A stretch of 64,000 nucleotides of DNA. Origin: Gemmatimonadaceae bacterium (lineage in GTDB: Bacteria > Gemmatimonadota > Gemmatimonadetes > Gemmatimonadales > Gemmatimonadaceae). The stretch covers positions 372,001-436,000 of the forward strand of contig JADLCY010000011.1 in NCBI GenBank assembly GCA_020846935.1. Reading direction: 5' to 3'. Made by a program: the position numbers and the translations under genes. Shown here one piece after another: positions 4,750 through 56,959 of this stretch (positions are counted from its first letter, which is position 1; each line of letters begins with the position of its first letter). The notes under the pieces were generated by a model that did not search any database, was not told the origin of the DNA, and saw only the letters and a program-made list of their open reading frames with translations.

Positions 4750-4972
4750 GTCCGGGAAAGTAGACCCGCGGGCCACCGGGCGGATAGGCGGGCCGGCGCC
4801 GTGGGGCGCCGCTGCGCAGAGGCCAGCCACCGCCTCGCTGGCTCGTTAGGCCTTTCCGGTCGCGAGTGCGCGCCTTCGACTGGCCATCATTCGTGACCGG
4901 GGATGGCGCGGTGATCCTGGACCGTGCCAACCCCGCGCACCCGAATCACCCGCAGCGGACCGTCCCGGCGCG

Positions 4973-5656
4973 TCAACCCTTTCGTGGCCGTGACGCGCGC
5001 ACTTCGACGTTGTAGACGAGCGCGTGCGCCGGCATCGCCACCATCTGCGCCACCACCTCGGCCACGTCGTCGGGGCGCAGGGCCCAGGTCACGCTCGATC
5101 CGCCCGGGGTGAGTTCGGTCGCGACCGAACCCGGCATGACGCACGATACCCGGACCCCGTGGTCGCGGACCTCGAGCATCAGCGTCTCGGTAAACCCGAG
5201 CACCGCGTGTTTCGTCGCGACGTAGCCTGTCCCGCCCGGAAACGTCGTGCGACCGGCGATCGACGCGATGTTGATCACCTGCCCCGAGCCGCGGGCGATC
5301 ATGCCGGGAAGCACCGCGCGCGTGACGTGATAGAGGGCGTTGAGGTTCACGTCGACCATCCCGTGCCATTCGTCGGGCGTGAGTTCGAGGAATGGTTTCC
5401 TGAACATCACACCGGCGTTGTTCACCAGTACATCGCAGCGGACGCCGTCCAGCGCGAGCGCGAGCCCGGCCGCATCCCGCAGGTCGACTTCGAGGCCGGT
5501 GAAGGTCCCGCCGGCGCCCGTGATCGCGGCGCCTAACGACTCCAGCTCACCACGCGTGCGACCGAGGCCGACCACGTGGTGCGTCCCGGCGAGGCGGAGG
5601 GCGACGGCGCGGCCAATGCCGCGCGTGGCCCCGGTAACCAGCACGGTCGGTGTCAC
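4973..5656 (-). CDS. Short-chain dehydrogenase/reductase (SDR)
   Basis: Classical SDR of about 227 residues. It has the NAD(P)-binding TGATRGIG near the N-terminus, the NNAG motif (DVLVNNAGVMF), and the catalytic Ser-Tyr-Lys set: serine in NIASIAGR and YVATK. Substrate is not predictable. The GTG at 5656 forms a GTGA overlap with the stop of the M20 peptidase upstream, giving MTPTVLVTGATRG, the usual SDR N-terminus; an earlier frame start inside the peptidase gene is unlikely. Coupling to the peptidase suggests a two-gene operon, but no pathway is evident. Confidence 0.9.
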   Translation of the reverse strand: MTPTVLVTGATRGIGRAVALRLAGTHHVVGLGRTRGELESLGAAITGAGGTFTGLEVDLRDAAGLALALDGVRCDVLVNNAGVMFRKPFLELTPDEWHGMVDVNLNALYHVTRAVLPGMIARGSGQVINIASIAGRTTFPGGTGYVATKHAVLGFTETLMLEVRDHGVRVSCVMPGSVATELTPGGSSVTWALRPDDVAEVVAQMVAMPAHALVYNVEVRASRPRKG

Positions 5657-7011: not shown

Positions 7012-7042
7012 GGCTGGTCGCAGCGCCCGCTCGCCACGCGCG

Positions 7043-8401: not shown

Positions 8402-8483
8402 TGCGGACGTTCGTGGTCGAGGTGGGTCGAACCTTGGGGCGGAAGCGCAAGATAAGCGCTCGCAGCGCAGCCGGCCCGAGCGG

Positions 8484-9188
8484 CTACCGCATGGACCCGC
8501 TGGCCACCTGCCGGATTTCGTCCGCAGTTCGGAGTTCGGGCCGCGCCCCGAGCAACCGCCCGATCAGCCCGGTGGCGTTGGCGACGGCAAACGAGACCCC
8601 GGACAGGTTGCGCTCCGCAGCGACACCGGGAATCGGCCGCGGCCAGGGCGACGCGCCCACGGGCCCGTCAGCTGAAGCCGAAACCGCCAGCGAGAAGCGC
8701 GGACAGGAAGGATCGACCACGACGCCAAGGACGCCGGCGAGCGAACCGGGATACCACTGGACTTCCCCGTCGTCGTACGCCGAGACGACGAGCGCACCAC
8801 GCACCAACGCAGCGCTCAGCGCGGCTTCGAAGATGGGCACGTGGACCGCGTTCCTGGTGCCGAGGCTCAGGTTCACGAGGCGGGCGCCATCCTCCACCGC
8901 CCACACGATCGCGTCGGCGAGCATGCGCGCGCTTGTAGCGAGCGTGCGATCGAGCACGCGCACGGGAACGAGCGTCGCCTCGGGGAGCTTCTCCCGGATC
9001 GCCGCCGCGACGGCCGTGCCGTGTCCGAGGCGATCCACCGTGTCCGCTCGGTCGTCTCCAACGAGCGAGATCCCGCAGGCCAGCGCACCCACGTGGGGAT
9101 GTCCCGGCGCCACGCCGCTATCGATGACGGCGACGCGGAGCCCGGCGCCGCCCGACGCCTCCGAGGGCGACCACAACTTGCCGCTCAC
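8484..9188 (-). CDS. qhpE: Subtilisin-like protease, QHNDH maturation (QhpE-like)
   Basis: S8 serine protease domain of 234 residues with Asp23 (VAVIDSGV), His56 (RLGHGTAVA) and Ser199 (SGVSFAVANATG) as the triad. It has no signal peptide, so it acts in the cytoplasm. In known QHNDH clusters QhpE removes the leader of the cross-linked gamma subunit, and its place as last gene of this cluster fits. The oxyanion Asn of subtilisins appears replaced by Asp (SAYDDG where AGNDG is usual). GTG 9188 overlaps the stop of a 21-codon ORF (GTGA). The open frame continues to 9407 but would run inside the ABC transporter gene. Confidence 0.85.
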   Translation of the reverse strand: MSGKLWSPSEASGGAGLRVAVIDSGVAPGHPHVGALACGISLVGDDRADTVDRLGHGTAVAAAIREKLPEATLVPVRVLDRTLATSARMLADAIVWAVEDGARLVNLSLGTRNAVHVPIFEAALSAALVRGALVVSAYDDGEVQWYPGSLAGVLGVVVDPSCPRFSLAVSASADGPVGASPWPRPIPGVAAERNLSGVSFAVANATGLIGRLLGARPELRTADEIRQVASGSMR

Positions 9189-9250
9189 GGCATCAGGTCG
9201 GGCTCGAGGAAGGCGGAAAGCTCTTGCGTGATCGCCGAGCGCGCGAGCAT
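9185..9250 (-). CDS. 21-residue ORF between qhpF and qhpE
   Basis: ATG at 9250 and TGA at 9187-9185 encode MLARSAITQELSAFLEPDLM plus a final Pro. It begins 24 bp after the qhpF stop, and its stop overlaps the qhpE GTG as GTGA. Either it is a real tiny gene or coupling leader, or it is the true N-terminus of QhpE displaced by a frameshift. The peptide looks helical and acidic, more like the beginning of a protein than a processed peptide. I cannot decide between these. Confidence 0.4.
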   Translation of the reverse strand: MLARSAITQELSAFLEPDLMP

Positions 9251-9274
9251 TGACAAGGGTGGCACGGGCTGTCG

Positions 9275-10963
9275 CTATGCGCTCGCCGACGTCACGACGG
9301 AGCGGTCCTCCACCAGGCGGCCGGCCTCCAGCACGACGGTGCGCCCAGCCATGGCGGCCACGTGTGCGCGATGCGTGATGAGGATGACCGTACGCTGCGC
9401 GAGCCATGGTCCCATGGCGCCAAAGACCGTTGCTTCGGTCGCGGGATCCAGCGCGTTGGTCGCCTCGTCGAGCAGGAGCACGCGCGGATTGGCCAGCCAG
9501 GCACGGGCGAGCGCCAGGCGCTGCCGCTCGCCCGACGACAGCGAGCGCCCGCGTTCTCCGAGCACCGTCGCCAGTCCCTCCGGGGCAGCGGCGAGCCAGT
9601 CACCAAGGCCCGTCACGGTGAGTGCCTCCTGCAGGCGCGCATCGGTCGCACTCGGGTCGGCCACTCGGAGGTTCTCGGCGATCGATGCGTGGAACACGAA
9701 CGGCTCGGTCTCGACGGCAAGCACCGACTGCCTGACGACGGCGAGCGGAAGCTGGCGCAGATCGATGCCGTCGAGACGCACCACGCCGCGCTGCGGGTCG
9801 GCGTGCCTGACGAGGAGGTCGGCGATGGTCGACTTTCCGCCCCCACTCGTGCCAACGACCGCCAGGCACGCCCCGGGGTCGACGGACAGCGACACACCGT
9901 CGAGCACCGCGCCGCGGTCGAACGCGTACAGCACGTCATCGAGCCGCACCTCGCCACGAACGGGGGTCGCCGCGCGCGTGGGCGCTTGCGGATCCACGAC
10001 CTCCACGGGCACATCGAGGATCTCGTGGACACGTTTGAGTGACACGCGCGCCGAAGCCACACTCGCATAGATGCCCATCAGTCCCTGGACCGGGCCCAAC
10101 AGGCGCATCTGATAGGCGGCGAACGCGACGAGCGTGCCCATCGTGATCTCGCCGGTGATCACGCGCCACCCACCGTACATGAAGACGACGGCACTGCCGG
10201 CGGCGAGCAGCACCCCGGGCAATCCACCCGACAGGTACGTCTGCCGCCTCATGGTCATCAAGGCGTCAACAAACCCGGCGTTGCGCTCCCGAAACTCGGA
10301 CTCGCTTCGCTGCTGCGCGTTGTGCGCGACGAGCAGCTTCATGCCCTGCAACGCCTCGATGAGGAACGTGCCCGTTCCGGCCGAGCGATCGCGCACCGCC
10401 GTGACCGAGCCTTCGAGCTGTCGCCGGTAGCGCCGCAGCGCCCACAGTGCCGGGGGCAGCGCGAGCAGCCCAACGACAAAGAGCCGCGAGTCGAGGAGAA
10501 CCAGCATCACGACGCTGCCGACGAGGTAGACCACCTGCCCGATCCACGCCAGCGCCACCTCGGCCGCCACCCGCTGGATCTCGGCGATGTCGCTGTTGAT
10601 GCGGGACGCGATCTGTCCGATCGGCGTGGCGGCGAACCAGCGCGGCGACAGCCGCTGCAGGTGGCGGAACACGTCGAGCCGCATGTCGAACAGGATGTCC
10701 GCCGACACGCGCGTGTAGCGGAGCCCGCTCACCACGTTGACGAAGAACGACGCAGCCGTGAGTCCGACGAACCCGGCGACCACCCAGGCAAGCGCCGTGA
10801 GGTCACGACCGATCAGCGCGCGATCGACGAGGATCTTGGAGAGGAACGGTTGCGTCAGCGAGAGCGCCGTGCCGACGAGCGAAAGGCCAACGACGGGAAG
10901 CAGGCGGCCGACGTAGGGACGCACGTAGCGCAGCGCGCGTCGAAAGTCACCACCGTCAGCCAC
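9275..10963 (-). CDS. qhpF: ABC transporter, fused permease-ATPase (QhpF-like)
   Basis: 562-residue type I exporter half-transporter. A six-helix membrane domain fills about residues 15-310. The nucleotide-binding domain has Walker A GTSGGGKST, the signature LSSGERQRLALARAWL, Walker B RVLLLDEATNALD and the switch histidine LITHR. There is no N-terminal peptidase domain, in line with proteolysis by the separate QhpE. In QHNDH systems QhpF is needed to move the matured gamma subunit to the periplasm. Start is GTG 10963; the gene lies 25 bp after qhpB. Generic multidrug export is the alternative reading if context is ignored. Confidence 0.85.
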   Translation of the reverse strand: MADGGDFRRALRYVRPYVGRLLPVVGLSLVGTALSLTQPFLSKILVDRALIGRDLTALAWVVAGFVGLTAASFFVNVVSGLRYTRVSADILFDMRLDVFRHLQRLSPRWFAATPIGQIASRINSDIAEIQRVAAEVALAWIGQVVYLVGSVVMLVLLDSRLFVVGLLALPPALWALRRYRRQLEGSVTAVRDRSAGTGTFLIEALQGMKLLVAHNAQQRSESEFRERNAGFVDALMTMRRQTYLSGGLPGVLLAAGSAVVFMYGGWRVITGEITMGTLVAFAAYQMRLLGPVQGLMGIYASVASARVSLKRVHEILDVPVEVVDPQAPTRAATPVRGEVRLDDVLYAFDRGAVLDGVSLSVDPGACLAVVGTSGGGKSTIADLLVRHADPQRGVVRLDGIDLRQLPLAVVRQSVLAVETEPFVFHASIAENLRVADPSATDARLQEALTVTGLGDWLAAAPEGLATVLGERGRSLSSGERQRLALARAWLANPRVLLLDEATNALDPATEATVFGAMGPWLAQRTVILITHRAHVAAMAGRTVVLEAGRLVEDRSVVTSASA

Positions 10964-10988
10964 GGGGACACCGCCGGTCAGTCACTCG

Positions 10989-12071
10989 TCACGGAACGAC
11001 GAGAACGCGCGTCATGTCGGCCCGATACTCGACGGTGCGGATCTTCTGCAGCGTCTCCGCATCGTAGAGGTCGATCGTCGGACCAGCCGTGTGCACGTAC
11101 AGCACGCGACCGTTCGAGCTCACCGAGAGGCCCATGCGTGGTCGCCCGTCGAACTCGACGCGCTGGCTCACCTGACGGTTCTCGAGGTCGAACGTCCAGA
11201 ACTGGTAGTTCCCTACCTGTTGACGCAGGCCGAACGCCCGGCGTCGGCCCGGCGCGAGCGCAAACCCCACGGGCTCGCTGGGCCCCAGGGAATAGAAGTC
11301 GACCGCACGCCGGGCCAGGTCGACGCGCGCCACGCCCATGAGCGCGCGGTGGTTCACCGGATCCGTCGTGCGAAAGAGGCTCGTGTAGAAGCCTGGCTCA
11401 TCGTACAGGCTCTCCGGGAACCCGAAGCTCAGCCGCCCCACGCCGTCATCGATCGAGTGCTGCAGGTCGAAACGATCGACTTCCCTGAGCGTGGCGGTGT
11501 CGTACACCAGGATGTCGTCGGCCGTGAAGAAGTACATCAGGCCGCCGTCGGGCGAAAAGAGCACCTGCGCGAACTCGCGCTCCTCGCCACCGGGCCAGCG
11601 AATCGTGTCCGTCACCACCTTCCGCGCCAGGTCGTACTTGAGGAGCGTGGGCCTCCCGATCACCCACCGATCCGACTTGCGCTGCGCCGTCTTCACCAGC
11701 AGTACGGCGAACCGGTCGCGAGGATCGATGTTGAAGTTCCGGATGCGCACCCGCACCGAATCGTTGGAGAGCGAGAACTGGCCTTTCGCCTTCCGCGTCG
11801 CGAGATCGAACACTTCGATGGACTCGAAGTTGGGTTCGATGATGTACATCGACTTGCGATCAGCCGAGAGCGTCATGCCCATCGGGATGCCGATGGACAC
11901 GCGCATCGAGTCGCGCACGTTCATCGACGCCTCGTCGATGACGAGGACCTTCCTGTCGTAGGTGCCGTAGTAGATCGTGCCCGTGCCGCCGCTGGGCGCC
12001 TGCGCCGCCAGCGACCGGATGGCCGCGGCGCCGAGCAGCGCCGCCGCGAGCACTTGGGCGCGGACGCTCAT
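10989..12071 (-). CDS. qhpB: QHNDH beta subunit (seven-bladed propeller type)
   Basis: 360 residues with an N-terminal signal peptide (hydrophobic AQVLAAALLGAAA then SLAAQA) followed by repeated beta-propeller blades: GTIYYGTYDRKVLVID, GMTLSADRKSMYIIEPN, VLFSPDGGLMYFFTADDILVYD, LSVSSNGRVLYVHTAGPTIDLYD. This is the layout of the 40-kDa beta subunit of quinohemoprotein amine dehydrogenase, which docks on the gamma subunit and helps form the active site in the periplasm. ATG 12071 overlaps the gamma stop (ATGA), tying the two together. On its own it could be any propeller protein; the neighbours make the call. Confidence 0.88.
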   Translation of the reverse strand: MSVRAQVLAAALLGAAAIRSLAAQAPSGGTGTIYYGTYDRKVLVIDEASMNVRDSMRVSIGIPMGMTLSADRKSMYIIEPNFESIEVFDLATRKAKGQFSLSNDSVRVRIRNFNIDPRDRFAVLLVKTAQRKSDRWVIGRPTLLKYDLARKVVTDTIRWPGGEEREFAQVLFSPDGGLMYFFTADDILVYDTATLREVDRFDLQHSIDDGVGRLSFGFPESLYDEPGFYTSLFRTTDPVNHRALMGVARVDLARRAVDFYSLGPSEPVGFALAPGRRRAFGLRQQVGNYQFWTFDLENRQVSQRVEFDGRPRMGLSVSSNGRVLYVHTAGPTIDLYDAETLQKIRTVEYRADMTRVLVVP

Positions 12072-12427
12072 GGGAAAATGAGGTCGATCTTGCGCCAGTC
12101 CTGCTGCGCGGCCGCACACTTGGCCGTCCAGTCCGGCGCGTGGTTGTACAGGTCGGGAACGTGGATCGGCCAAAAGCAGGTGATGTAGCAGTCGTACAGA
12201 TCCCGCTCGACGGGCTGACAGAGCCCGGCGGTGGATCCGGTGCTATCGACCTCCCAGCCGGGGGAGAACACGAAGGAGCACCCGAGCGGGATGTGCGGCC
12301 CTTCCGGTACGCGAGGCCCCTGGGTCCCCTGGAGGGCCACGACGTCGCTCGCATCGTGAACGTCCGGCGGAGCATTCAGCTGCTCGATCGTCCGGGCCTT
12401 GCGGTTGACGGCCTTGAGATGGCGCAT
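12068..12427 (-). CDS. qhpC: QHNDH gamma subunit, CTQ-bearing precursor
   Basis: 119-residue precursor of the small catalytic subunit. The C-terminal 70 residues match the spacing of known gamma subunits: Cys50-Glu59, Cys70-Asp76 and Cys84-Asp92 fit the three thioether pairs, and Cys80-Trp86 fits the pair that becomes cysteine tryptophylquinone. Landmarks are PGWEVD, LCQP, VPDL and the closing DWRKIDLIFP. The leader (MRHLKAVNRKART...) is not Sec-like, as in known systems where the radical SAM enzyme acts on it in the cytoplasm. It has two extra cysteines-free linker residues before Gly49, making it longer than the roughly 28-residue leaders described elsewhere; cleavage site unknown. Start ATG 12427, 27 bp after qhpD. 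Confidence 0.93.
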   Translation of the reverse strand: MRHLKAVNRKARTIEQLNAPPDVHDASDVVALQGTQGPRVPEGPHIPLGCSFVFSPGWEVDSTGSTAGLCQPVERDLYDCYITCFWPIHVPDLYNHAPDWTAKCAAAQQDWRKIDLIFP

Positions 12428-12454
12428 GTCCGATGATCGGTGATCGGTGGTCGA

Positions 12455-13873
12455 TCAGGCGTCGAACTGACGAAGGAACTCGGGACGACGTGCGGCGAGC
12501 GTCGCGTACACCTCGAGGCACGTCGCACTCCAGCGACGGATCCACTCGCAATAGTGCAGGTTTGGCGCCTCGGTCGATCCGTAGCGCGTCTGTGCCTCGT
12601 GGTAGCACCCCCCGGCACAGAGCGATCGCGCCCAGCAGGTATGACAGTCGGTCTTGTTGTCGATGTGGTGCCGGCGGAGGTAGTCGTCCTGCAAGGCATG
12701 ATCGACCCCGTCGCGCACCGTGCCAAGCTTGTGCCGGTCGGAGCCCGCGAAGCGATGGCAGAGCCCGACGTCGCCGTCGGTGGCCACGCCCAGCAAGCCG
12801 AGCCCTGCACCGCACGGGTAGGCCTTGGCCACGCCCTTGTGGATCTCGTCGAGCGTGTCGCGCACGTTGGAGAACCCGTGGTGACGTCCCTGGAGCGACG
12901 TCTCCCTGTACTCCGCCGCCAGCACCTGAAACTGCCCGAGCATCTCCTCGAAGCCTTCGGCCTGGATCGCGTAGTCGCGCTGCCACGACGTCGTCACGGG
13001 CGCGAAGCCCACTTCCCAGAACCCGATCTCCTCCTTGAGGTGCCGGTAGATGTTGACGACATCGAGGTTGCCCTTCGTGAGCGTCACCCGTGCCCCGATC
13101 GGCCGGCGGTTGTGGCGACGCAGCAACTCCTTCACACGCGGGATCACGACGTCGTAGCTCCCCGCGCCATTGGCAAACACGCGCAACGCATCCTGCTGCT
13201 CCCGTGCGCCGTCCATCGACACCGTGACCCCGACGTCGTTCTCCACCATCCAGTCGATGATCTCCTCGCGCAGAAGCGTCGCGTTGGTCGTCAACGAGGC
13301 GTCCACCGACTTGCCCAGGGCCGCGGCGCGCTCCTTCGCGTAGCCGAGCGCGAATTTCAGCACCTTGAAGTTGAGCAGCGTCTCGCCGCCAAAGAACGTG
13401 AGGTGCACGTGGGACTGCGCGCCCGACTCGGACAACATGAAGTCGACGCTCTCCCGCGCGGTCTCCTCGCTCATGAAGCGCGGCTTCGTCGTGGGCTCGA
13501 CGATCCGATCCTCGCCGTATTCGTAGCAGTACTTGCAACTCAGGTTGCACTTGCTCGTCACGTTCATGACGAGCGTGGTCAGCGGAATGCGTCGGCGCGG
13601 ACCCTCGGCGGCGGGCGCGGGCTTTGGCGCGGCCACCGGACGCACCGCCTGGGCCGCGACCAGCTCGTCGATCGTCTCGCCCAGCAGCGTCGGCTCGAAG
13701 CGCGCCGCGAGGCGGTCGAGCAGCGCGTCACGAGCGAGGTCGCCTTCGCCGAGGGCGTCGAGTACCGCCGCCGACGGGCCGTCGAGGCGAAAGACGGCGG
13801 CCGACGGCACGAGATAGACGTGCGTGGCGCCGTCGGCGTCGAACTGATGAAACTCCCCGCGTCGCAGCAGCAT
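12455..13873 (-). CDS. qhpD: Radical SAM/SPASM peptide cyclase QhpD
   Basis: 472-residue radical SAM enzyme. The CX3CX2C cluster is Cys109-Cys113-Cys116 (SKCNLSCKYCYEYG). A C-terminal SPASM region carries further cluster cysteines (CHTCWARSLCAGGCYHEA and a late YCEW). An N-terminal segment of about 80 residues looks like a PqqD-type peptide-recognition domain. QhpD makes the Cys-to-Asp/Glu thioether links in the gamma subunit, which is encoded 27 bp downstream. The start overlaps the alpha-subunit stop as TGATG. The frame is open to 13993, but the ATG at 13873 (MLLRRGEFHQFDADG) is the sensible start. Confidence 0.93.
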   Translation of the reverse strand: MLLRRGEFHQFDADGATHVYLVPSAAVFRLDGPSAAVLDALGEGDLARDALLDRLAARFEPTLLGETIDELVAAQAVRPVAAPKPAPAAEGPRRRIPLTTLVMNVTSKCNLSCKYCYEYGEDRIVEPTTKPRFMSEETARESVDFMLSESGAQSHVHLTFFGGETLLNFKVLKFALGYAKERAAALGKSVDASLTTNATLLREEIIDWMVENDVGVTVSMDGAREQQDALRVFANGAGSYDVVIPRVKELLRRHNRRPIGARVTLTKGNLDVVNIYRHLKEEIGFWEVGFAPVTTSWQRDYAIQAEGFEEMLGQFQVLAAEYRETSLQGRHHGFSNVRDTLDEIHKGVAKAYPCGAGLGLLGVATDGDVGLCHRFAGSDRHKLGTVRDGVDHALQDDYLRRHHIDNKTDCHTCWARSLCAGGCYHEAQTRYGSTEAPNLHYCEWIRRWSATCLEVYATLAARRPEFLRQFDA

Positions 13874-42099: not shown

Positions 42100-43302
<1,203 letters not shown>

Positions 43303-43392: not shown

Positions 43393-45510
<2,118 letters not shown>

Positions 45511-45922: not shown

Positions 45923-47113
45923 TCACGTCGCCCACAGGACGTTGAAGTAACGTCGCCATGCGCGGCCGCGCGTCAGCTGGGTCTTGATCCGCGTCACGAC
46001 ACCAGCGTCCCCCGCATACACGGTCGGTCGCCGCGCCGGCTCGGAGTCCCAGGGCCGCTCTCGGCTCGTCGCAGTCCGGTTCGGCTCGAGTGCCATGCTC
46101 CACATAGCCCTCCGCAGCTTTGCCGAAGGGCACGGGGTGATGATGGCGATCACATGGATGGCCAGATGGCGCTCCAGCAATTGGAGCATCCAGGCGGACC
46201 GCCGGGGTGCCAGGCTCGCCAGCACACCTACGGGGGCCACCGACACCCCACAGAGCAGGTCCGCCAGCCGCAGGCTCCAATACATGGCGAACTCGGCCTT
46301 GTATCCCCGCGAAAGCTCCAGCACGCGCTGCCAGTCGATCCCTCGCTCCGCGAGGGCGGCCACATCCCGCGCCAGTCGCCAGATCCCGAACGAGGCCAGG
46401 TGGCCCCAGGCGAAATGCACCGCCAGGTGCAAGAGCTGATGCTCGGGGTCGAGCACCCGTGTGAGTTCGCTCCGCTCCGAGATCGGGCGCGACACCGCGC
46501 GCGCCTGCTCGAACGACAGGGAAAAGGGATGGCTGCTCAGGCTCAGCGCCGTGTGCAGCTCGAGCCGCACCCCCGTTCGCGCCGCGTCGAACAACGGCGG
46601 CAGGTGGTGGTGCGCCTGATAATGACTGCTGGGGTACTCGTGCTCATCCCAGACCCAGCCCTGGGAGAGCGCGAGTTCCCATGCGCGCTTCGAATGTTCG
46701 GGCGCAATCAGGACATCCAGATCCCCCATGGGACGATCCGCAAATCGCGGATACGCCGACAGCGCCAGCCCCGCCCCCTTGAGGAGGATTGCCGGAATGC
46801 CCTCGGATTCCAGCCCGGCAATGAGGCGACGCAGCCGATCCTCCAGCATCAGCGCCGTGAAGCCCGATACGCGCGAGAGCCGCTCGATCTGATCGGCGCC
46901 GTCCTGCGATGCGTCGACCCCCAGGCGCTTGAGCCGTTCCCACGACACCGGAAGGGTGCGCTCCCACTCCAGCAAGGTGCGCAGGCCGTCCCACTGCACC
47001 GGGCCGGCGAGCAGATCCCGTAGCTGCGCGTCGTTGGACTCTCCACCACCGGTCAGGAGGAGAATCCGCATTTCGCGCGACATCAGGCCGAGCAGGCGGG
47101 CGTTGACGCTCAC
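45923..47113 (-). CDS. Nucleotidyltransferase family protein, lasso tailoring
   Basis: 396 residues. The centre has the NTP_transf_5 pattern: GIPAILLKGAGLALSAYPRFADRPMGDLDVLI, where the Gly-Asp-Leu-Asp supplies metal ligands, then HLPPLFDAARTGVRLELHTAL. Proteins of this family occur in lasso-peptide loci that also have an HPr-kinase-like gene, where a role in further modifying the phosphorylated peptide has been suggested. No signal peptide. It is last in the locus, 40 bp after the permease. The last 60 residues are basic and non-conserved-looking. Confidence 0.8.
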   Translation of the reverse strand: MSVNARLLGLMSREMRILLLTGGGESNDAQLRDLLAGPVQWDGLRTLLEWERTLPVSWERLKRLGVDASQDGADQIERLSRVSGFTALMLEDRLRRLIAGLESEGIPAILLKGAGLALSAYPRFADRPMGDLDVLIAPEHSKRAWELALSQGWVWDEHEYPSSHYQAHHHLPPLFDAARTGVRLELHTALSLSSHPFSLSFEQARAVSRPISERSELTRVLDPEHQLLHLAVHFAWGHLASFGIWRLARDVAALAERGIDWQRVLELSRGYKAEFAMYWSLRLADLLCGVSVAPVGVLASLAPRRSAWMLQLLERHLAIHVIAIITPCPSAKLRRAMWSMALEPNRTATSRERPWDSEPARRPTVYAGDAGVVTRIKTQLTRGRAWRRYFNVLWAT

Positions 47114-47153
47114 AGGGATGGCGAGGCGAAGAACCGGGACGGCAACGGGAAAC

Positions 47154-47954
47154 CTAAAGATGACTCAACGTACCGCGACGGCCAGCATAGCCAAGCGCCG
47201 CGCGAAACGCGACGACGCCAACCACGAGCGTTCCCGCCGTGATCGCGGCCAGGATCAGCACATCGGATGATACCGTCGCAACCGGCGCTCCATCCAGCAG
47301 CACGCGCCGCAGCGCTCGAAGCCCGTACGCGGCAGGGACGAACGACGCCAGACTCTGGATCCACGACGGAATCACGCTCGTGGGATAATACGCCCCTCCA
47401 AGCAAGGTGGATGCGACCACCACCGCTTGCGAGAGCGGACCGGACGTACGGAACGCGACGACCAGCGCCGCACCGATCAGACCTATCGCCCAGTGCACCA
47501 CCACGATGAGGGCCAGGATGCCAAGCGCGGGCACCACGGAACCGATCGCAATGCGCGCGCCGAAGAGCGCGCCGGCCGCGAGCATCAGCGCGCCACGGAA
47601 CACGGCCCACAGGATGGGATAGGCGGACAACCCCGCGAGAATGGCGACCCGCGGCGCGCGCGTCATGAGCACGCCCTCGAAGAAGCCGCTCGATATCCCC
47701 GCCTCCACCGCCCCTGGAAGGGTGGCCACGCAAATGCTGATGAGACTCACGGCAAACGTACCGATCAGCATGAATGGGAAGTACTGCGTCCCCTCGTTCC
47801 GGATGGCGCTGGCCATGGTCGGCTGCAGCGCCGTCGCGATGAAATACACGGGAATCACCGTGACCCAAAGCGTGAGCAGCGAGATGACGGTCTGCACGCG
47901 ATAGCTCATCGCGGTGAGCCATGCTGCGCGGATCAGCGCGCCTATCGTCCTCAT
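47154..47954 (-). CDS. ABC-2 type transporter permease
   Basis: 266 residues with six membrane segments (for example VQTVISLLTLWVTVIPVYFIATAL at the start) and the ABC-2 helix PLSQAVVVASTLLGGAYYPTSVIPSWIQSLASFVPAAYGLRALR. ATG 47954 overlaps the ATPase stop as ATGA. It most likely exports the lasso peptide or gives self-protection. Confidence 0.88.
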   Translation of the reverse strand: MRTIGALIRAAWLTAMSYRVQTVISLLTLWVTVIPVYFIATALQPTMASAIRNEGTQYFPFMLIGTFAVSLISICVATLPGAVEAGISSGFFEGVLMTRAPRVAILAGLSAYPILWAVFRGALMLAAGALFGARIAIGSVVPALGILALIVVVHWAIGLIGAALVVAFRTSGPLSQAVVVASTLLGGAYYPTSVIPSWIQSLASFVPAAYGLRALRRVLLDGAPVATVSSDVLILAAITAGTLVVGVVAFRAALGYAGRRGTLSHL

Positions 47955-49024
47955 CGCGTTCCCTCGCGCCGACGTGCCAGCACGGCGTCGATGAGGTCAG
48001 CCAGGGAAGCCTCGTCCTTTTCCATCGCGGCCACCCGGACGCCGGCGTTCACGAGCTGCGCGACGACCTCGCTCGCGGCAGCCTCGTTGGCAGCGAGGCG
48101 GATGGTGAGTCGCGCCCAGCCGGCGGCATCGGCCGGCTCGCGCGTCACGACCTCCAGCCTCCCCTCGTGCTCCAGCTCCGCTATCACAGAGTGCCATGGC
48201 TGATCGATCGTGACCCGGTGACGCGCCCCGAGCACATCGTATGCCAGGTCGCGCGCCGACCCCTCAGCCACGATCGCACCTCGATCGAGAATCGCGACAC
48301 GCCGGCAGAGGTTGAACGCCTCGTCCGCGTCGTGCGTGGCCAGCACCACCGCGCATTGCCTGCGATGGGACAATTCGTCGCGCAGAAAGCGCCGGAACTC
48401 GCGCGAGGCAATTGGGTCGAGGCTCCGCGTCGGCTCATCGAGCAGCAGGAGCCTCGGCCGAGGCAGAAGCGCTCGCGCGATGATCAGCCGCTGGATCATG
48501 CCGGACGAATACTCGCGCACCATGCGATCCGCGGCGTCCTCGAGCTGGACATCACGCAGCGCCTCCTGCACGCGCTCGTTCACGTCGCTCGCGGGGATCG
48601 CATGCAGGGCCGCGTAGAGCCTCAGGTTCTCGCGAGCAGACAGCCGCCAATAAAGACCACGCTCGCTGGCCAACGACAGCGACATCAGCGATCGCACCAC
48701 CTCCGGCTCGCGCCTCACGTCGTGCCCCTCAACGCTCACCTCCCCTTCGTCCGCGATGATCAGCGTGGCGATGACTTTCATCAGCGTCGTCTTGCCCGCG
48801 CCGTTGGCGCCGAGCAGTCCATAGAACTCGCCCGCGGCCACGTCGAACGAAACGCCACGCAGCGCGGGAGTCCACGTTACGTCGAACGGTGCCCGGATGG
48901 CCTCACGCCAGGGGCGGCGGCGCGGAAAGCGCTTGGCGACCCCACGAACGCGGAGCAGCGCAGGCTCTGCGCCCGACGCGCCCTGCCGAACGGTACCTGG
49001 CGAGGTCTCGAGGTCCACGCCCAC
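47951..49024 (-). CDS. ABC transporter ATP-binding protein
   Basis: 357 residues. Walker A GANGAGKTT, signature YSSGMIQRLIIARALL, Walker B RLLLLDEPTRSLD, switch LATHDADEA. A C-terminal extension of about 90 residues (HRVTIDQPWHSVIAELEHEG...) has an ACT-like pattern, as in some exporter ATPases. It starts 3 bp after the kinase gene and overlaps the permease gene, so these form one unit. Confidence 0.9.
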   Translation of the reverse strand: MGVDLETSPGTVRQGASGAEPALLRVRGVAKRFPRRRPWREAIRAPFDVTWTPALRGVSFDVAAGEFYGLLGANGAGKTTLMKVIATLIIADEGEVSVEGHDVRREPEVVRSLMSLSLASERGLYWRLSARENLRLYAALHAIPASDVNERVQEALRDVQLEDAADRMVREYSSGMIQRLIIARALLPRPRLLLLDEPTRSLDPIASREFRRFLRDELSHRRQCAVVLATHDADEAFNLCRRVAILDRGAIVAEGSARDLAYDVLGARHRVTIDQPWHSVIAELEHEGRLEVVTREPADAAGWARLTIRLAANEAAASEVVAQLVNAGVRVAAMEKDEASLADLIDAVLARRREGTR

Positions 49025-49027
49025 GCG

Positions 49028-49951
49028 TCAGCGGTGCCAGCCGAGGATCGTCGCGGCGGCATCCGCCAGGCGATCAAGGTCGCGTGCCACGTGGAGGAGA
49101 TAGACCGGCACGCGCCGGGCAATCGCAGCCGATTGCTCGAACATCAGGCCCGCATCCTTGCGGCCGAGCAGCGGCCCAAGCTTGGCGTGTTCGACGAGCG
49201 CAAGCGTGGCCTGGATCTCGGTGAGCACACTCCGTCGAGCCGACTCCGCGTCGTCAGGGGCGGACGGGAGCAGGACATACAAGGCCGCGAGCGGAACGGC
49301 GCTGCGTTGTACCGTGCCCTCATCGAAATGATCGAGCACCACTTTTCGGGCTGGTGCAGATTCTCCCATGCGCTCCGCGGCCAGCCGCGACGCGGAGTCC
49401 TTCCACAGTCGGAGCTGGTGCACGCCGGGGCGGACCAGAGGTGTGGCATCGGGCGTCACCGGGACCGTGTCGTCTGACAGGAGCCGGGCCCCACCGCGGA
49501 CCAGTGCCGTGGCCAGCGTGCTCTTTCCGTGCATCTTGGGCGCGAGGAGCGCAATGCCTCTGCCGTTGATGGACACCGCGCTGGCGTGCAGACAAAGCAC
49601 GTCGTGCTGGTGGAGCGCGAGGGCAAGCACCCTCCCGACCACGTCAGCGCGAACCGCCTCGAGCAAGCTGTCGTCGGCATCGTGCGGAGCGAACCACCGA
49701 ATGAGGGCCCCGTCGCTGACATCGAAGCGGCCCGTGTCATCATAGACGAGCGAGTGGCCCTGCATGGTGCGATAACACCGCACCTTGACCTCGCCGTAGA
49801 CGTCGTCGTCGCCAATGAGAGACGCGGGATCGAGGGGCGAGGGAATGTCACCCCGCTCCAGAATCCACGACGCCGGACCGGAGGTCTGCTGGAGCTCCGG
49901 GAATTGGAAGGGCGCCTTGAGCGTGCCGGCGAAGACGTCGTAGGAGTACAT
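49028..49951 (-). CDS. HPr-kinase-like protein, probable lasso-peptide kinase
   Basis: 307 residues of the HPr kinase fold used in peptide pathways. LHASAV (residues 121-126) and the P-loop APKMHGKST (137-145) are clear, followed by ARLLSDDTVPV, which supplies the acidic residues. It is too far from true HprK to be part of sugar regulation, and no PTS genes are near. In lasso loci such enzymes phosphorylate the C-terminal serine of the precursor, and the precursor here ends in Ser56. ATG 49951; spacing to the ATPase is 3 bp. Confidence 0.85.
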   Translation of the reverse strand: MYSYDVFAGTLKAPFQFPELQQTSGPASWILERGDIPSPLDPASLIGDDDVYGEVKVRCYRTMQGHSLVYDDTGRFDVSDGALIRWFAPHDADDSLLEAVRADVVGRVLALALHQHDVLCLHASAVSINGRGIALLAPKMHGKSTLATALVRGGARLLSDDTVPVTPDATPLVRPGVHQLRLWKDSASRLAAERMGESAPARKVVLDHFDEGTVQRSAVPLAALYVLLPSAPDDAESARRSVLTEIQATLALVEHAKLGPLLGRKDAGLMFEQSAAIARRVPVYLLHVARDLDRLADAAATILGWHR

Positions 49952-50090
49952 GTGGGGAGTGATCGACAGCTGATGCGACCTGCGCCTGCAGCGTGGACGA
50001 CCTGACCGAAGTGGCTGTGGTCAGGTGAGAAGTTGCAGAGGGCGTGCCGAGAGGGCGATGGGCGTGCGGCGCGTCCGCCACAACAAAACT

Positions 50091-50127
50091 GCCGTCCCGC
50101 AGCCACGGAAGGTGGCTACGGGACGGC
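50091..50127 (-). terminator. Strong hairpin after lasso precursor
   Basis: GCCGTCCCG-C-AGCCAC pairs with GTGGCT-A-CGGGACGGC (50112-50127 with 50091-50106), a 15-bp stem with one mismatch, followed on the minus strand by AGTTTTGTTG. It lies between the precursor and the kinase gene, so part of the transcript should end here. Confidence 0.75.
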
Positions 50128-50245
50128 GTTGAGTCCCGGGAGACTTGGGAGTGAGGTTGGTCGCCCCCGCAGCGCTTCCCGTCGTTCGCTTGTCGACCAG
50201 CGGCTCAGGAATCCGCCGAGCGAGCGACCCCGATCATGCACCGCC

Positions 50246-50267
50246 TGGGTCGCGCGGAGGCGACCCA
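50246..50267 (-). repeat. Hairpin just past the precursor stop
   Basis: TGGGTCGC (50246-50253) pairs with GCGACCCA (50260-50267), starting 10 bp after the precursor stop codon. No T-tract. It is likely an mRNA 3'-end stabiliser or a second, weak terminator. Confidence 0.6.
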
Positions 50268-50277
50268 AGTGGTGTGA

Positions 50278-50448
50278 TTACGAACGGATGCAGGCGCGCG
50301 GATCGCCCGGCGGGGCGTTGCCGTCGCAGTCCAGCCCGATGTTCGGAATCAGGTCGTCGCCGATGATGCGCTTGGTCGTATTGGGATTCCGCTGGAGCGT
50401 GAGCTCACGGAACGACCCAAATTTCTCGAGCGATGGTGCACTGTACAT
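50278..50448 (-). CDS. Lasso peptide precursor (A)
   Basis: 56-residue peptide. The leader has the conserved lasso pattern Y-x-x-P-x-L-x-x-x-G-x-F-x-x-x-T (MYSAPSLEKFGSFRELT, residues 1-17), the element that B1 binds. The rest has Asp31, Asp32, Asp40, Asp42 and Asp49, two cysteines (Cys41, Cys53), a GNAPPGDP turn, and ends CIRS with a C-terminal serine. No Asp or Glu lies 7-9 residues after the usual cut next to Thr17, so the core start is uncertain (see findings). ATG 50448 is preceded by AGGAGGAGAACG, a near-perfect ribosome-binding site, in keeping with high expression. It lies 145 bp after the cyclase gene. Confidence 0.85.
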   Translation of the reverse strand: MYSAPSLEKFGSFRELTLQRNPNTTKRIIGDDLIPNIGLDCDGNAPPGDPRACIRS

Positions 50449-50481
50449 CGTTCTCCTCCTCCCGTGACGGTGAGCACTGTG

Positions 50482-50517
50482 GCAGTACCGCAATTCCCAG
50501 GCCAAGGTGCAGTACCG
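50482..50517. repeat. 9-bp direct repeat upstream of precursor
   Basis: GCAGTACCG occurs at 50482-50490 and 50509-50517, 27 bp apart start to start, 35-70 bp before the precursor ATG. It could be a pair of operator half-sites, or chance. Confidence 0.35.
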
Positions 50518-50592
50518 GCTATTTCCTGTTCACCCCACGGTAAGCGCAGATGCCCAACTGGGCAATGAGCAGCTTTTTCCCGGTGCGCTACG

Positions 50593-52497
50593 TCACCCCA
50601 CGACCGACCGCATCCACAGTTCTGCCTGCAAGGTGAGCAGAAGCTGTACACCGATCATGTGCTCTCCGCTGGCCTCATACCGGGCCAGGCCTGCTCGATA
50701 TCGATCAACGTCGATGATCCCGGCGTCAGCGAGTCGTGGCGGGCTGGATCCGAGCAGGACGTCATGGACCCACGGCGCCAGTTCCTCTCGGAGTCGGCGG
50801 TGCAGGTACGCACGTGGAACGCCAGTCTTCGACTTTCTGGGGGCCAGGACGGATGCCGGGATCAGTCCTTCCACGGCCCGGCGAAGCACGCGCTTGGTCT
50901 CGCCGGGGCTCACCCGATCGCCGATGGGGCGGCTCGCCGCAAACTCGATGATGCGTCGATCCATCAGGGGCGACCGCACGTCCACGCCCCCCTGGAGCGC
51001 CACGGCGCCGGACCACGACACGGCACGGGGGAAGAAGGGAGTCTGGGTGTACCAGCGCGATTCGTACGCGGCCGGACTTTCGAAGAGTCGCTTTGGTGGG
51101 TCGAGCTCCACGCGCGCCTTCATCAGCGCCTCCTCACGCCAGGCGTCCCCGAGCCAGGGTGGAATGGACTGCGACGTCAGCTCCTCGGTGCTGCGCCCGC
51201 GGGCCTCCTGGATGCGGCGCCAGAGTCCGGGCGGTAGCCACGGCACGATGCAGTCGACAAAGAAGGCCCGAAACCCGATGGACTCCATGGAGCGTCGGAG
51301 CTCCGCGAGTTCGCGCCATCGACCCCGAACGAGGAGATCGGCGGCGTACACGGTCGAAACGTGGAAGAGCTGATCACCGCCGTAGCCATCGAACGCCACG
51401 CGACCACCAGCCGCGACGCTGGTGCGGGCCAACTGCCGATTCATCTGCTCAAACGTGTGTGCATACGGGTCATCGCGGACCGCGGCACTCAGCTCCGCGT
51501 CCACGAGGACCGGGACCGACTCACTGTCGATCCAGGTGACCTTCGAATGCCACTGCTCAGCGATGGCGTTGACGTGATGATCCTCCCGAGCGCTGTCGCC
51601 CTCCGGATAGGAAACCGTCACCGGGGCGATCGTGATCGCGCGGCTGTCTTGTTGGGCGGCAAGCTGGGTGGCCCCGAACACGGCGGTGGAGTCTGCGCCG
51701 CCACTCAGCCACACCGTGGTGACGGGTTCAACGGCGCGCTCCGCGACCGCCCGCACGAGGAGGGCCCGCAGCTCGCGGGCCCCTGCTTCGAGGTCGTGTC
51801 GTCCGCCAATGCGGAACTCCGGAGGAGTCCACATCTCGACGACGCGCGGAGCGGCGCCGGGCCGCCACTCCACCGCTGCGCCGGCGGCCACCGGAAGCAC
51901 GCCTTCGAATCCGGTCTGCAAGCTGCCCCCCAGCAGACCGCCAACGGCCGCCGCGATGGTCGAGAGCTGCAGGGGAAACCGGTGCGCGGGCGATGCCGCG
52001 ATGGCGCGCGCCGTCGACGCGGCCAGGAACGTGTCACCGCCGAGTGCGTAGTGCAGTGGCCGGCGACCCACGTAGTCGCGCGCCAACAGTACTTTCCGCT
52101 GCGCCTCGTCAACAACGATGAAGGCGAAGTCTCCCTCGAGCACGTGCACACACCGGGCGCCGAAGGCACGATACGCACCGAGAATGAGTGACGTGGCGTC
52201 GTCGCCGCGCTTCGCAGGCACGCCGGCACTCGTGAGCCGGTGGCACAGGTCGTCGACGTAGTACAGCGTGGCGTCGGCCACCGCGATCAGCGGGCCATCG
52301 CGAACCACGTGCGACGGACCGGCAAGGCCAGGAGCGATTTCCCAGGCAAAGCGCTGCACCCCGACGGCGCCCCAGGCCAGTTCGCCAATGGTGCGTCCCG
52401 CGTCACCGCGATGCGTCGCGGCTTCGAGCATGGCCCCAACCGATGGCGTGCCTGCGCCGCGGGCGGTGCCGTGGAAAATCCCCGCGATGGCGCTCAA
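50593..52497 (-). CDS. Lasso cyclase, asparagine-synthetase-like (C)
   Basis: 634 residues. An N-terminal glutaminase-like domain begins MSAIAGIFHG; the nucleophile Cys2 of true asparagine synthetases is absent, as expected in lasso cyclases. The C-terminal synthetase domain has the ATP-pyrophosphate loop VWLSGGADSTAV and AFDGYGGDQLFH. The enzyme adenylates the ring Asp/Glu side chain and closes the macrolactam. Start TTG 52497 overlaps the B2 stop as TTGA; the longer frame to 52590 is Arg-rich and lies inside the B2 gene. Confidence 0.92.
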   Translation of the reverse strand: MSAIAGIFHGTARGAGTPSVGAMLEAATHRGDAGRTIGELAWGAVGVQRFAWEIAPGLAGPSHVVRDGPLIAVADATLYYVDDLCHRLTSAGVPAKRGDDATSLILGAYRAFGARCVHVLEGDFAFIVVDEAQRKVLLARDYVGRRPLHYALGGDTFLAASTARAIAASPAHRFPLQLSTIAAAVGGLLGGSLQTGFEGVLPVAAGAAVEWRPGAAPRVVEMWTPPEFRIGGRHDLEAGARELRALLVRAVAERAVEPVTTVWLSGGADSTAVFGATQLAAQQDSRAITIAPVTVSYPEGDSAREDHHVNAIAEQWHSKVTWIDSESVPVLVDAELSAAVRDDPYAHTFEQMNRQLARTSVAAGGRVAFDGYGGDQLFHVSTVYAADLLVRGRWRELAELRRSMESIGFRAFFVDCIVPWLPPGLWRRIQEARGRSTEELTSQSIPPWLGDAWREEALMKARVELDPPKRLFESPAAYESRWYTQTPFFPRAVSWSGAVALQGGVDVRSPLMDRRIIEFAASRPIGDRVSPGETKRVLRRAVEGLIPASVLAPRKSKTGVPRAYLHRRLREELAPWVHDVLLGSSPPRLADAGIIDVDRYRAGLARYEASGEHMIGVQLLLTLQAELWMRSVVG

Positions 52498-52955
52498 GGC
52501 CGCGTGCTGACCTGGAGATCGTCGAACGATGCGTAGCGATCGACGGTGCCTTCGTCGTCGCCGACGACTTCGCCGGCGTATTCGACCCATGCGTGGGCCA
52601 TGAACTTCCCCTGACGGCGCGCGACGCCGACCCTGACGGCGCTCCCGGGGAGTCCCTCGGCGTCGAGGCGACGGCAGATGGCGAGTGAGCGGACGAGGCA
52701 GGTCGGATGGAAGACTCCGTAGACCGACGCCCGCGAAACGCCGAGGACGACACGACGCACCTCGTCGATTCGCTGGGGATCGGCGGCGCTCCCGGAGCGT
52801 GCATCCGCTGGGCCGGTCGTCACGAGTTCACCCTGTGGCCTGGTCCGCACGTCGCGTCGGGCTCGGAGCAGCGCCACCTGGCCGAGCAGCAACCGCCACC
52901 AATCGCGTGGGGTGAGCCGCGCCGCCTTACCGAGCAACGCGAGGAGCGCTGCCAT
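52494..52955 (-). CDS. Lasso leader protease, transglutaminase-like (B2)
   Basis: 153 residues of the lasso B2 family. The cysteine-protease triad fits Cys86 (HPTCLVRSLAICRRL), His121 (FMAHAWVEYAGE) and Asp133 or Asp134. It cuts the leader from the core. ATG 52955 or GTG 52961 both overlap the B1 stop by about 30 bp. Translation probably runs from B1 through B2 to C as a coupled set. Confidence 0.9.
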   Translation of the reverse strand: MAALLALLGKAARLTPRDWWRLLLGQVALLRARRDVRTRPQGELVTTGPADARSGSAADPQRIDEVRRVVLGVSRASVYGVFHPTCLVRSLAICRRLDAEGLPGSAVRVGVARRQGKFMAHAWVEYAGEVVGDDEGTVDRYASFDDLQVSTRP

Positions 52956-53262
52956 CGCCACCGGCCCTGGGCGGAGCGTCGATGACGAGGCCGTTGGCCC
53001 GGAGGTCCGCGAGAAAACTCGTCACGTCGCGCTGGATTCGCGCGAGGCCCACGTCGGAAAACTTTCTTGCGAGCGTTTCACACAACTCCTCGACGGAGCT
53101 GCACGTCGGGAGCATTTCCCAGATGATTGCGCCGACCGCGTTGACACCGAAGTAGACCTCGGAGTCGCTGGAAAAGAGCACCCCGCCCTCTGCCATCGCG
53201 CGGAAGATGGCAGCGGGAGCTGGCGTCGGGAGCGGCGTGCGGGAATCGGCCACCGGGGTCAC
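52927..53262 (-). CDS. PqqD-like leader-binding protein (B1)
   Basis: 111 residues. PqqD-fold signature: DSEVYFGVNAVGAIIWEMLPTCSSVEELCETLARKF, then a second helix IQRDVTSFLADLRANGLV. It holds the precursor leader for B2 and C. It starts at GTG 53262 and is first in the locus; the promoter should lie in 53263-53364, where I see no clear boxes. Confidence 0.9.
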   Translation of the reverse strand: MTPVADSRTPLPTPAPAAIFRAMAEGGVLFSSDSEVYFGVNAVGAIIWEMLPTCSSVEELCETLARKFSDVGLARIQRDVTSFLADLRANGLVIDAPPRAGGDGSAPRVAR

Positions 53263-53364
53263 TCACTTCGTGGAATGGGCGCGAGCGCTGTTTCGGGTGA
53301 CGACGGTCGAGCGGGAAAGGAAACCAGCCGCGTGTCGTGGCGCTAGATCGGGTTCGGCGGCGTG

Positions 53365-53397
53365 AAAAGGGCGCCACGGCAACTCGCCGGGCGCCCT
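53365..53397 (-). terminator. Rho-independent terminator after rpsG
   Basis: AGGGCGCC (53390-53397 on the minus strand), a 14-nt loop, then GGCGCCCT (53368-53375) followed by TTTC. It lies 24 bp past the rpsG stop, so rpsL-rpsG transcription should stop before the lasso genes. Confidence 0.85.
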
Positions 53398-53420: not shown

Positions 53421-53891
53421 TTACCAGCGGTAGTGTGCGAATGCCTTGTTGGCTTCGGCCATGCGGTGCGTGTCTTCTTTTTTCTTGACCGCGTTGCCTT
53501 CGCCCTTGGACGCGGCGATGACTTCGGCCGCGAGCTTCTCCGCCATCGACTTTTCGTTGCGATCGCGCGAGTAGGAGAGCAGCCAACGCATGGCGAGGGC
53601 CGTGCGGCGCTCCGGGCGAACCTCGACCGGCACCTGATACGTCGCGCCACCGACGCGGCGCGACTTGACCTCGATGACGGGCTTGAGGTTGGCCAGGGCG
53701 GCCTTGAAGACGTTCACGCCGGGCTGGCTGGTGCGCGACTCGACGAGATCCATCGCGCCATAGAAGATGCGCTCGGCGGTGCTCTTCTTTCCCTGAAGCA
53801 TCAGGGAGTTGATGAACTTCGAAACGGTCTGACTGTCGTAGCGGGCGTCGGCGAGGACGGGGCGCTTGACTGACTTCTTGCGACGGCTCAC
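53421..53891 (-). CDS. rpsG: 30S ribosomal protein S7
   Basis: 156 residues. [46 protein letters not shown] start and [41 protein letters not shown] end. ATG overlaps the rpsL stop by 4 bp (ATGA). fusA does not follow. Confidence 0.98.
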
Positions 53892-54283
53892 TTCTTCCCT
53901 CCGGCGGCGCCTGCTTTGGGCTTCTTGGTTCCGTACTTGGAGCGGCTCCGGTTGCGGCCGTTCACGCCAGCCGCGTCGAGGGTGCCGCGAACAATGTGGT
54001 AACGCACCCCCGGGAGATCCTTCACACGACCGCCGCGCACGAGCACGATCGAGTGTTCCTGGAGGTTATGGCCTTCGCCCGGAATGTAGGCGATCACTTC
54101 GATCTGGTTCGTCAGTCGCACCTTGGCGACCTTCCGCAACGCCGAGTTTGGCTTCTTGGGCGTCGTGGTATAGACGCGGGTGCAGACGCCGCGCCGGAAG
54201 GGATTCGCCTTGAGCGCCGGCGACTTCTCCTTCTTGAGGACGTCCTTGCGGGCCCGGCGAACGAGCTGGTTGATCGTTGGCAT
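53888..54283 (-). CDS. rpsL: 30S ribosomal protein S12
   Basis: 131 residues. [15 protein letters not shown] start; the decoding-site loop [19 protein letters not shown] has the wild-type lysine linked to streptomycin sensitivity, and [13 protein letters not shown] is intact. A hairpin with a T-tract lies only 14 bp before its ATG. Confidence 0.98.
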
Positions 54284-55879: not shown

Positions 55880-56959
55880 CTACCGCACCGCGGCGAGCTC
55901 CAGATGCACCAGGCCGTCGTCGTCCGCGCGTGCAACGTACGCCCCGCGGGCCGTGACGGTGAGGATGCGAACACGCTTTGGAAGCACGAGCCGAGCAACC
56001 GCCGCACCGCGCGCGTCCAAGATGTCGTACCACGTAGAGTCGCGCCGGGCGGTCACGTGCCGGCGTACCCACGTCTCACCGTTGGCCAGTGCCACGACCG
56101 ACTGCGGCGGGAATGGCGGCAGCGTTTCGGGCCACTCGAGCGCCTCCGGCGCCGGTCGGCGCAGCAAGGTCGCCAGATACTCTTCGCGTTCCGCGTCTCC
56201 GACGGGAATCGACGTCACCGGGATCACCGGTCCGCGCACGACCCTGCCGTCGGCCATCACCTGGTCGAGCCGGTACGGCGCCCGCCGAGCAATCGCGACG
56301 CGCCCGCCCGGCGCCACGCCGAACGGCTCTCCGACGGCAAACGGCATGCGGACCACCTCGACCGACTCGATGCGCGTGCCGGTCTGCTTGATGTGGATCT
56401 TTGTCTGAGGCGCGGCCAGCGGCGTCACGGGCGTCACGCGCAACGACGCGACGTTGACTCTGACGAGTCGAACCGAGTCCGGCGCCTTCCCCGCAAACGT
56501 GCTCCCCTCGAACATGGCTGTGACCGCAACGAGGTTTCCCGCACCGTCACCGCCGCCCGCCTGGGCCAGCGGGACGCCTTCGGGCGCCGTCACCGTCGCC
56601 GGCAGCGATCCGTCGGGCGCCACCACCAGCAGCCGACGGTTGCCGGCGTCCACGAGCCAGGTGGTGTCCCCGCGGGCGGGCAGCAGCGCGGTTGCTCGAC
56701 GGAACTCGCCCGGACCGCTCCCGACACTGCCTAACGACTTCTGCGTCCCGCGCTCGAGGTCGACGAGGTGCAACGCCTGCTCCTTTGCGTCGTACACGAG
56801 GATCCGGCCGTCGGACAGCACGCGCGCCGCCGAGATGTCGGAATACGCGGCCGCGGCCTCACGCGAAGCGCCGAGTCGACGCTCGCGGACCTGCGCGCCT
56901 GCCGGTGTCGCGGCGAACAGCGCGAGCGCGGCCAGACAGACGATCGAAGGATCTCGCAT
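55880..56959 (-). CDS. Secreted six-bladed beta-propeller protein
   Basis: 359 residues. Signal peptide SIVCLAALALFAATPAGAQV, then propeller-like repeats: ISAARVLSDGRILVYDAKEQALHLVDLE, GSVGSGPGEFRRATALLPARGDTTWLVDAGNRRLLVV, APGGRVAIARRAPYRLDQVMADG. The G-S-G-P-G-E-F sequence is typical of BF3164-like or NHL-like propellers common in free-living Gram-negatives. Role unknown. It stands between rpoC and the acyltransferase gene, 46 bp from the latter. Confidence 0.75.
   Translation of the reverse strand: MRDPSIVCLAALALFAATPAGAQVRERRLGASREAAAAYSDISAARVLSDGRILVYDAKEQALHLVDLERGTQKSLGSVGSGPGEFRRATALLPARGDTTWLVDAGNRRLLVVAPDGSLPATVTAPEGVPLAQAGGGDGAGNLVAVTAMFEGSTFAGKAPDSVRLVRVNVASLRVTPVTPLAAPQTKIHIKQTGTRIESVEVVRMPFAVGEPFGVAPGGRVAIARRAPYRLDQVMADGRVVRGPVIPVTSIPVGDAEREEYLATLLRRPAPEALEWPETLPPFPPQSVVALANGETWVRRHVTARRDSTWYDILDARGAAVARLVLPKRVRILTVTARGAYVARADDDGLVHLELAAVR

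Follow-up and report, generated by a model that had tools for sequence, protein, structure and literature searches.

A putative phospho-lasso peptide cluster between rpsG and fusA, at a family-wide gene-gain site in the str operon of Gemmatimonadaceae

The window analysed here is a 64,000-nucleotide stretch of a Gemmatimonadaceae genome (assembly GCA_020846935.1, contig JADLCY010000011.1) that carries the str operon, whose order rpsL-rpsG-fusA-tuf is a textbook case of conserved gene order. Inspection of open reading frame (ORF) calls together with profile searches reveals that rpsG and fusA of the window are separated by eight genes, all on the minus strand from 53262 to 45923, in the order B1, B2, C, A, HPr-type kinase, ABC ATPase, ABC-2 permease and NTP_transf_5. 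An earlier note, made from the letters alone, had proposed an eight-gene lasso-type locus at this position, and the locus is borne out at these coordinates. Its features and those of its surroundings are as follows.

53888-54283, minus strand: rpsL (S12), upstream half of the str operon (ORF and relatives)
53421-53891, minus strand: rpsG (S7)
53361-53397, minus strand: terminator-like hairpin 3' of rpsG, GGGCGCC..GGCGCCC followed by TTTT, plausible only
52927-53262, minus strand: B1, PqqD-type leader-binding protein (RRE; PF05402, E 3e-16)
52494-52961, minus strand: B2, leader peptidase (NF033537 lasso_biosyn_B2, above cut-off)
50593-52503, minus strand: C, lasso cyclase of asparagine-synthetase type (PF00733, PF13537; NF033535 the top NCBIfam match)
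50278-50448, minus strand: A, lasso precursor of 56 aa with leader YSAPSLEKFGSFRELTL and C-terminal RS (NF033521 above cut-off; homologues)
50091-50127, minus strand: strong terminator-like hairpin in the A-kinase interval, with a 16-bp stem (z -7.0)
49028-49951, minus strand: HPr-type peptide kinase, expected substrate a C-terminal Ser (TIGR04352/PF07475 weak; BsfK alignment)
47951-49024, minus strand: ABC exporter ATPase, DrrA type (profile searches)
47154-47954, minus strand: ABC-2 permease, DrrB type (profile searches)
45923-47113, minus strand: NTP_transf_5 nucleotidyltransferase, PsmN/BsfN-like role expected (PF14907, E 3e-39)
43393-45510, minus strand: fusA (EF-G), downstream half of the str operon (ORF)
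42100-43302, minus strand: tuf (EF-Tu; ORF)

The insert had also been described as free of transposase, integrase or repeat at its flanks and as host-like in base composition, and both descriptions hold. Profile searches of the insert identified none of the eight products as an integrase or transposase, a repeat search at the locus found no long repeat flanking the insert, and no tRNA was found at the locus. The GC content of the insert is 65-70%, compared with 63-71% in the flanks, with no compositional break. A mobile element as carrier of the lasso cluster was ruled out by the lack of an integrase or transposase product and of a flanking repeat. Misassembly was likewise ruled out, because the same order is found in independent assemblies of other genera. 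In the rpoC-rpsL interval of the window, the ORF at 55880-56959 is missing from the matching stretch of genome G154 (locus L180), and the rpoC-rpsL junction therefore varies too.

The assignment of B1, B2 and C to lasso families, which the earlier note had made without database searches, is supported by profile searches to differing degrees. B2 scores 63.3 bits against NF033537 (lasso_biosyn_B2; curated cut-off 33), and B1 is a PqqD protein by PF05402 (60.1 bits, cut-off 23.4, E 3e-16) that scores below the lasso_PqqD cut-offs. C exceeds the cut-offs of both Asn_synthase (PF00733) and GATase_7 (PF13537), and its top NCBIfam match is the lasso cyclase family lass_lactam_cya (NF033535), at 160 bits and under the strict cut-off of 525. 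The precursor A scores 24.4 bits against lasso_leader_L3 (NF033521, cut-off 19) and carries the YxxPxL leader motif as YSAPSL. For the remaining genes, the last is a clear NTP_transf_5 (135 bits, cut-off 31), the exporter genes are of DrrA and DrrB type by profile searches, and the kinase is HprK-related, with weak matches to TIGR04352/PF07475 and an alignment to the proven lasso kinase BsfK that includes the GKST and SDD/ADD motifs. The combination of a kinase in the cluster, its activity being predicted, with a precursor ending in serine (...ACIRS) is characteristic of the phospho-lasso subgroup, and the cluster is thus predicted to encode this known kind of chemistry. No second lasso cyclase of comparable score was found in the window's genome, and BsfK used as query found no relatives of the Bradymonas bsf system in genome contigs.

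In characterised phospho-lasso pathways, B1 binds the YxxPxL leader and the kinase targets a serine, usually the C-terminal one and Ser3 in BsfA. B2 of characterised lasso pathways cuts two residues after a Thr and C forms the ring. In the pseudomycoidin pathway NTP_transf_5 glycosylates the phosphate. Secretion of the product falls to the exporter. By analogy, B1 of the window would bind the YxxPxL leader and the kinase would phosphorylate the C-terminal serine, B2 would remove the leader and C would close the macrolactam ring, NTP_transf_5 may attach a further group at the phosphate, and secretion would proceed through the DrrAB-type exporter.

Inspection of the precursors reveals that the window departs from most of its relatives in one respect. 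With the core counted from Thr(-2), 33 of 40 distinct precursor sequences have Asp or Glu at core positions 7-9 (Asp8 in 30 of the 40) and 31 of the 40 end in Ser. The window precursor likewise has a C-terminal Ser, yet its first acids fall at core positions 13 and 14, with none at 7-9; because of this, the rule of a ring acid at 7-9 fails for the window subgroup. This subgroup (the window, G152, G153 and G079) has the common block KR[VI]IGDDLIP[NG]IGLDC, of which G079 carries the variant KIGDDMIPGIGLDC, and the linker between the leader Thr and an IGDD[LM]IPxIGLDC block varies in length (window; L067, L068, L056). As no acid lies at 7-9, lasso formation by the window precursor is not assured, and the failure holds only under the usual core rule, the cleavage site being predicted. 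An alternative cleavage start, at a Thr or Lys before KRxIGDD, might by eye place a ring acid suitably, against which stands the lack of conservation of the -2 residues.

The earlier note had given rpsG its own terminator, and a terminator there is plausible only. A hairpin with a T run is present, but it folds no better than its shuffles (z -0.75) and its run is just four T. Hairpins resembling the much stronger one between A and the kinase are found after A in many relatives, and in the window this hairpin would hold the level of precursor mRNA above that of the genes downstream. The rpsG-B1 gap measures 158 bp, and no sigma-70-like promoter was found before B1 by a scan that does not cover promoters of this phylum.

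Comparison of the rpsG-fusA interval across Gemmatimonadota, proposed in the earlier note, reveals short gaps outside the family and long gaps within it. The data comprise fetched intervals and, where a single contig carries both genes, hand-read coordinates, and cover 88 genomes from 27 genera of Gemmatimonadaceae and 39 genomes from other families of the phylum. In the other families, rpsL-rpsG-fusA is intact: rpsG and fusA lie 38-372 bp apart in 37 of the 39 and more than 400 bp apart in the other 2, with a median of 223 bp. This substantiates an insertion inside the str operon and rules out the alternative that fusA merely lies elsewhere in relatives. In contrast, the interval in Gemmatimonadaceae has a median of 5.6 kb and a range of 334 bp to 41 kb; it is longer than 1 kb in 71 of the 88 genomes, and in 21 of the 27 genera it does so in every genome sampled. 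The neighbouring junctions are closed: rpsL and rpsG are adjacent throughout the genomes compared, and fusA and tuf are separated by 46-153 bp in all 28 genomes checked. A gap of 3.1 kb between rpsG and fusA was observed in a genome of another family, f5 (L143, G223:C1:290600-297600).

The contents of the gap are diverse. Lasso genes, in complete or partial sets and always on the str strand, occupy it in eight genera, the window's own among them (g1, g5, g12, g14, g17, g20, g22 and g34). Position, strand and gene order are as in the window for g1, g5, g12, g20 and g22; the lasso order is rearranged in g14 and g34, and in g17 genome G091 has no detectable cyclase. Only B1 remains in the gap of G082. 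In G157 and G159 (g34), the str loci (L071/L073) hold B1, B2, ABC, permease and NTP_transf_5, and a second locus (L072/L074) holds C, A and a kinase. Other genera have unrelated cargo, often on the opposite strand: glycosyltransferase, UDP-GlcNAc 2-epimerase and PEP-CTERM genes resembling an exopolysaccharide set in g9 (L035-L052), exosortase and PEP-CTERM genes in g19 (L088-L090), and TonB-receptor genes in g7. Cargo differs even among close species within g9, g14 and g34. Such varied, unrelated cargo in the same gap marks this junction out as a gene-gain site used across the family, of which the lasso cluster is one long-held occupant.

The rpsG-fusA gap of G083 (L059, 973-12404) contains two each of cyclase, B1, kinase and precursor, lying together, and one of the precursors lacks a ring acid at 7-9.

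A species tree was built from S12, S7 and EF-G by a quick method with partial EF-G, leaving out g20, which had no joined contig. In this tree g1, g12, g14 and g34 form one clade (SH-aLRT 99). All of its sampled genomes carry lasso genes at str, and g5, g17 and g22 branch apart from it. The ABC/permease tree likewise groups g1, g12, g14 and g34 (93), without G158, apart from g5, g20 and g22. Together, the ABC/permease and cyclase trees describe two main str-linked groups, g1/g12/g14/g34 and g5/g20/g22 with G220, and the divergent lasso genes of G158 fall outside the former. The earlier note had called the insertion old and fixed. The position is common to four genera that form one species clade, which supports its age. 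Its fixation has limits: all sampled members of that clade carry lasso genes at the site, but many other genera of the family lack the cluster, G082 is reduced to B1 and the sets of G157 and G159 are split.

Two further loci come from other genomes of the order. In G220, which belongs to a different family of this order, a related lasso cluster immediately precedes rpsL and shares its strand (L159, G220:C222:5000-24516; lasso genes 4884-13495, rpsL 13816), and rpsG and fusA are separated by 2.5 kb with an opposite-strand MFS gene between them. In a Gemmatimonadales contig (L184, JACCSE010000120.1, 1-8084), a lasso-type cyclase follows the end of rpoC and a glutaminyl-tRNA-synthetase-like gene within 6 kb, and the contig then stops.

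Purifying selection acts on the lasso genes (dN/dS 0.09-0.44, versus 0.02-0.06 for fusA and rpsG), yet they diverge far faster than their flanks. Between the window and G154, the cyclases are 47% identical and the EF-G proteins 95% identical. Synonymous divergence of the lasso genes in this pair is 1.5-2.6 versus 1.46 for an ordinary neighbour gene, with no clear excess; it was therefore dropped as a sign of exchange. This result is consistent with vertical descent without exchange, and because synonymous divergence is not clearly above the neighbour's, exchange by recombination is something that we infer rather than observe.

We consider it probable that a complete phospho-lasso cluster is the long-held occupant of a permissive gene-gain site at rpsG|fusA, kept there since before the four genera split. 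Homologous recombination within the conserved flanks, rpsG and fusA, would bring cargo in or exchange it, with no integrase involved, and a terminator after rpsG together with a separate fusA promoter would keep the core genes expressed whatever the cargo. Placement in the str operon need not serve the function of the peptide. A competing account, to which we give somewhat less than an even chance, is that the junction is a hot spot on which lasso clusters from a family-wide pool landed about four times. The str label must have changed at least 3-4 times on the species tree and 6-7 times on the cluster trees, close species of g9, g14 and g34 carry unlike cargo, and the str-linked lasso genes form two distinct clades. 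However, the genes at the site almost always keep one order and orientation, all four genera of the clade carry the cluster, and the data are explained equally well by a single early entry with later losses and swaps. The trees accommodate either history, a single entry with subsequent losses or about four.

Explanations in which the location serves the peptide are less probable than the long-held occupancy that we favour. Insertion behind rpsG could tie peptide output to growth rate by read-through from the strong str promoter, as the constant str strand of the lasso genes, the short rpsG-B1 gap (158 bp) and the lack of a detected sigma-70-like promoter before B1 would suggest; the terminator-like hairpin within that gap, the frequent opposite orientation of cargo in other genera and a promoter scan that does not cover this phylum's promoters make this unlikely. 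It is very unlikely that the peptide hits RNA polymerase, the 30S subunit, EF-G or EF-Tu and that the cluster stays because rpoBC-rpsL-rpsG-fusA-tuf encode, or co-vary with, self-resistance. Precedents exist in the GE2270 genes, which lie between rpoC and rpsL-rpsG-fusA-tufR (PMC3943966), the berninamycin genes, which adjoin tuf-fusA-rpsG-rpsL (PMC9290621), and lariocidin, a lasso peptide able to bind the ribosome (PMC11451635); pointing the same way are the Bradymonas bsf cluster, bordered by unspecified ribosomal protein genes (PMC10368454), and the related cluster of G220, in another family and on the opposite side, just ahead of rpsL. Against this, no S12 residue tracks the cluster, and Ser at position 52 of S7 and Thr at position 168 of EF-G do so only weakly, such that convergent substitutions in the str proteins are not convincing; the EF-Tu comparison covered one of the two str-linked groups, the other having too few full sequences. 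Moreover, the same gap holds non-antibiotic cargo in other genera, str linkage is not shown for related clusters in g32, g9, g2, g11 and g35, and cyclases of about 50 genomes from other phyla have no rpsL, rpsG or fusA within 10 kb. A joint proposal is highly improbable, namely that the str-linked product acts on the adjacently encoded translation or transcription machinery, hence the two sides in two families, and that the window subgroup uses a ring outside 7-9 residues or a second processing step.

In the literature searched, we found no account of lasso genes placed within the str operon, none of a gene-gain site shared by a whole family at rpsG-fusA, and no dedicated study of lasso peptides in Gemmatimonadota. 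What emerges is a conserved operon that is routinely opened at one precise junction, by 0.3-41 kb of changing cargo, in a single family of soil-dwelling bacteria. The junction is a clean natural setting in which to ask how a core operon can accommodate insertions and swap them with no integrase at hand, and it points to a sizeable, unstudied set of predicted phospho-lasso peptides in Gemmatimonadota, for which the target idea is easily tested.

The phospho-lasso chemistry predicted for the window cluster is already known. Like the window, the paeninodin, pseudomycoidin and bsf (Bradymonas sediminis) systems combine split B1/B2, C, a YxxPxL leader, an HPr-type kinase, NTP_transf_5 and an ABC exporter, and the precursors of the window's relatives are, in likeness to them, mostly Ser-terminated. 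Unlike these systems, the window has a two-gene exporter of DrrAB type, a location in the str operon and no acid at core 7-9. In its setting the cluster resembles GE2270 and berninamycin, RiPP clusters that adjoin the str operon, and the G220 cluster lies on the same side as that of GE2270, upstream of rpsL. Those two encode thiopeptide enzymes, in contrast to the lasso enzymes of the window, which lie between rpsG and fusA, and, unlike them, the window shows no convincing resistance-type substitution in S12, S7 or EF-G (EF-Tu being compared in one str-linked group). Integrase-free chromosomal gene-gain sites between core genes likewise hold varied cargo at one position in related genomes. The flanks of the present site differ from theirs in belonging to the str operon, as a rule one of the least interrupted, and to our knowledge a gene-gain site with such flanks is unusual.
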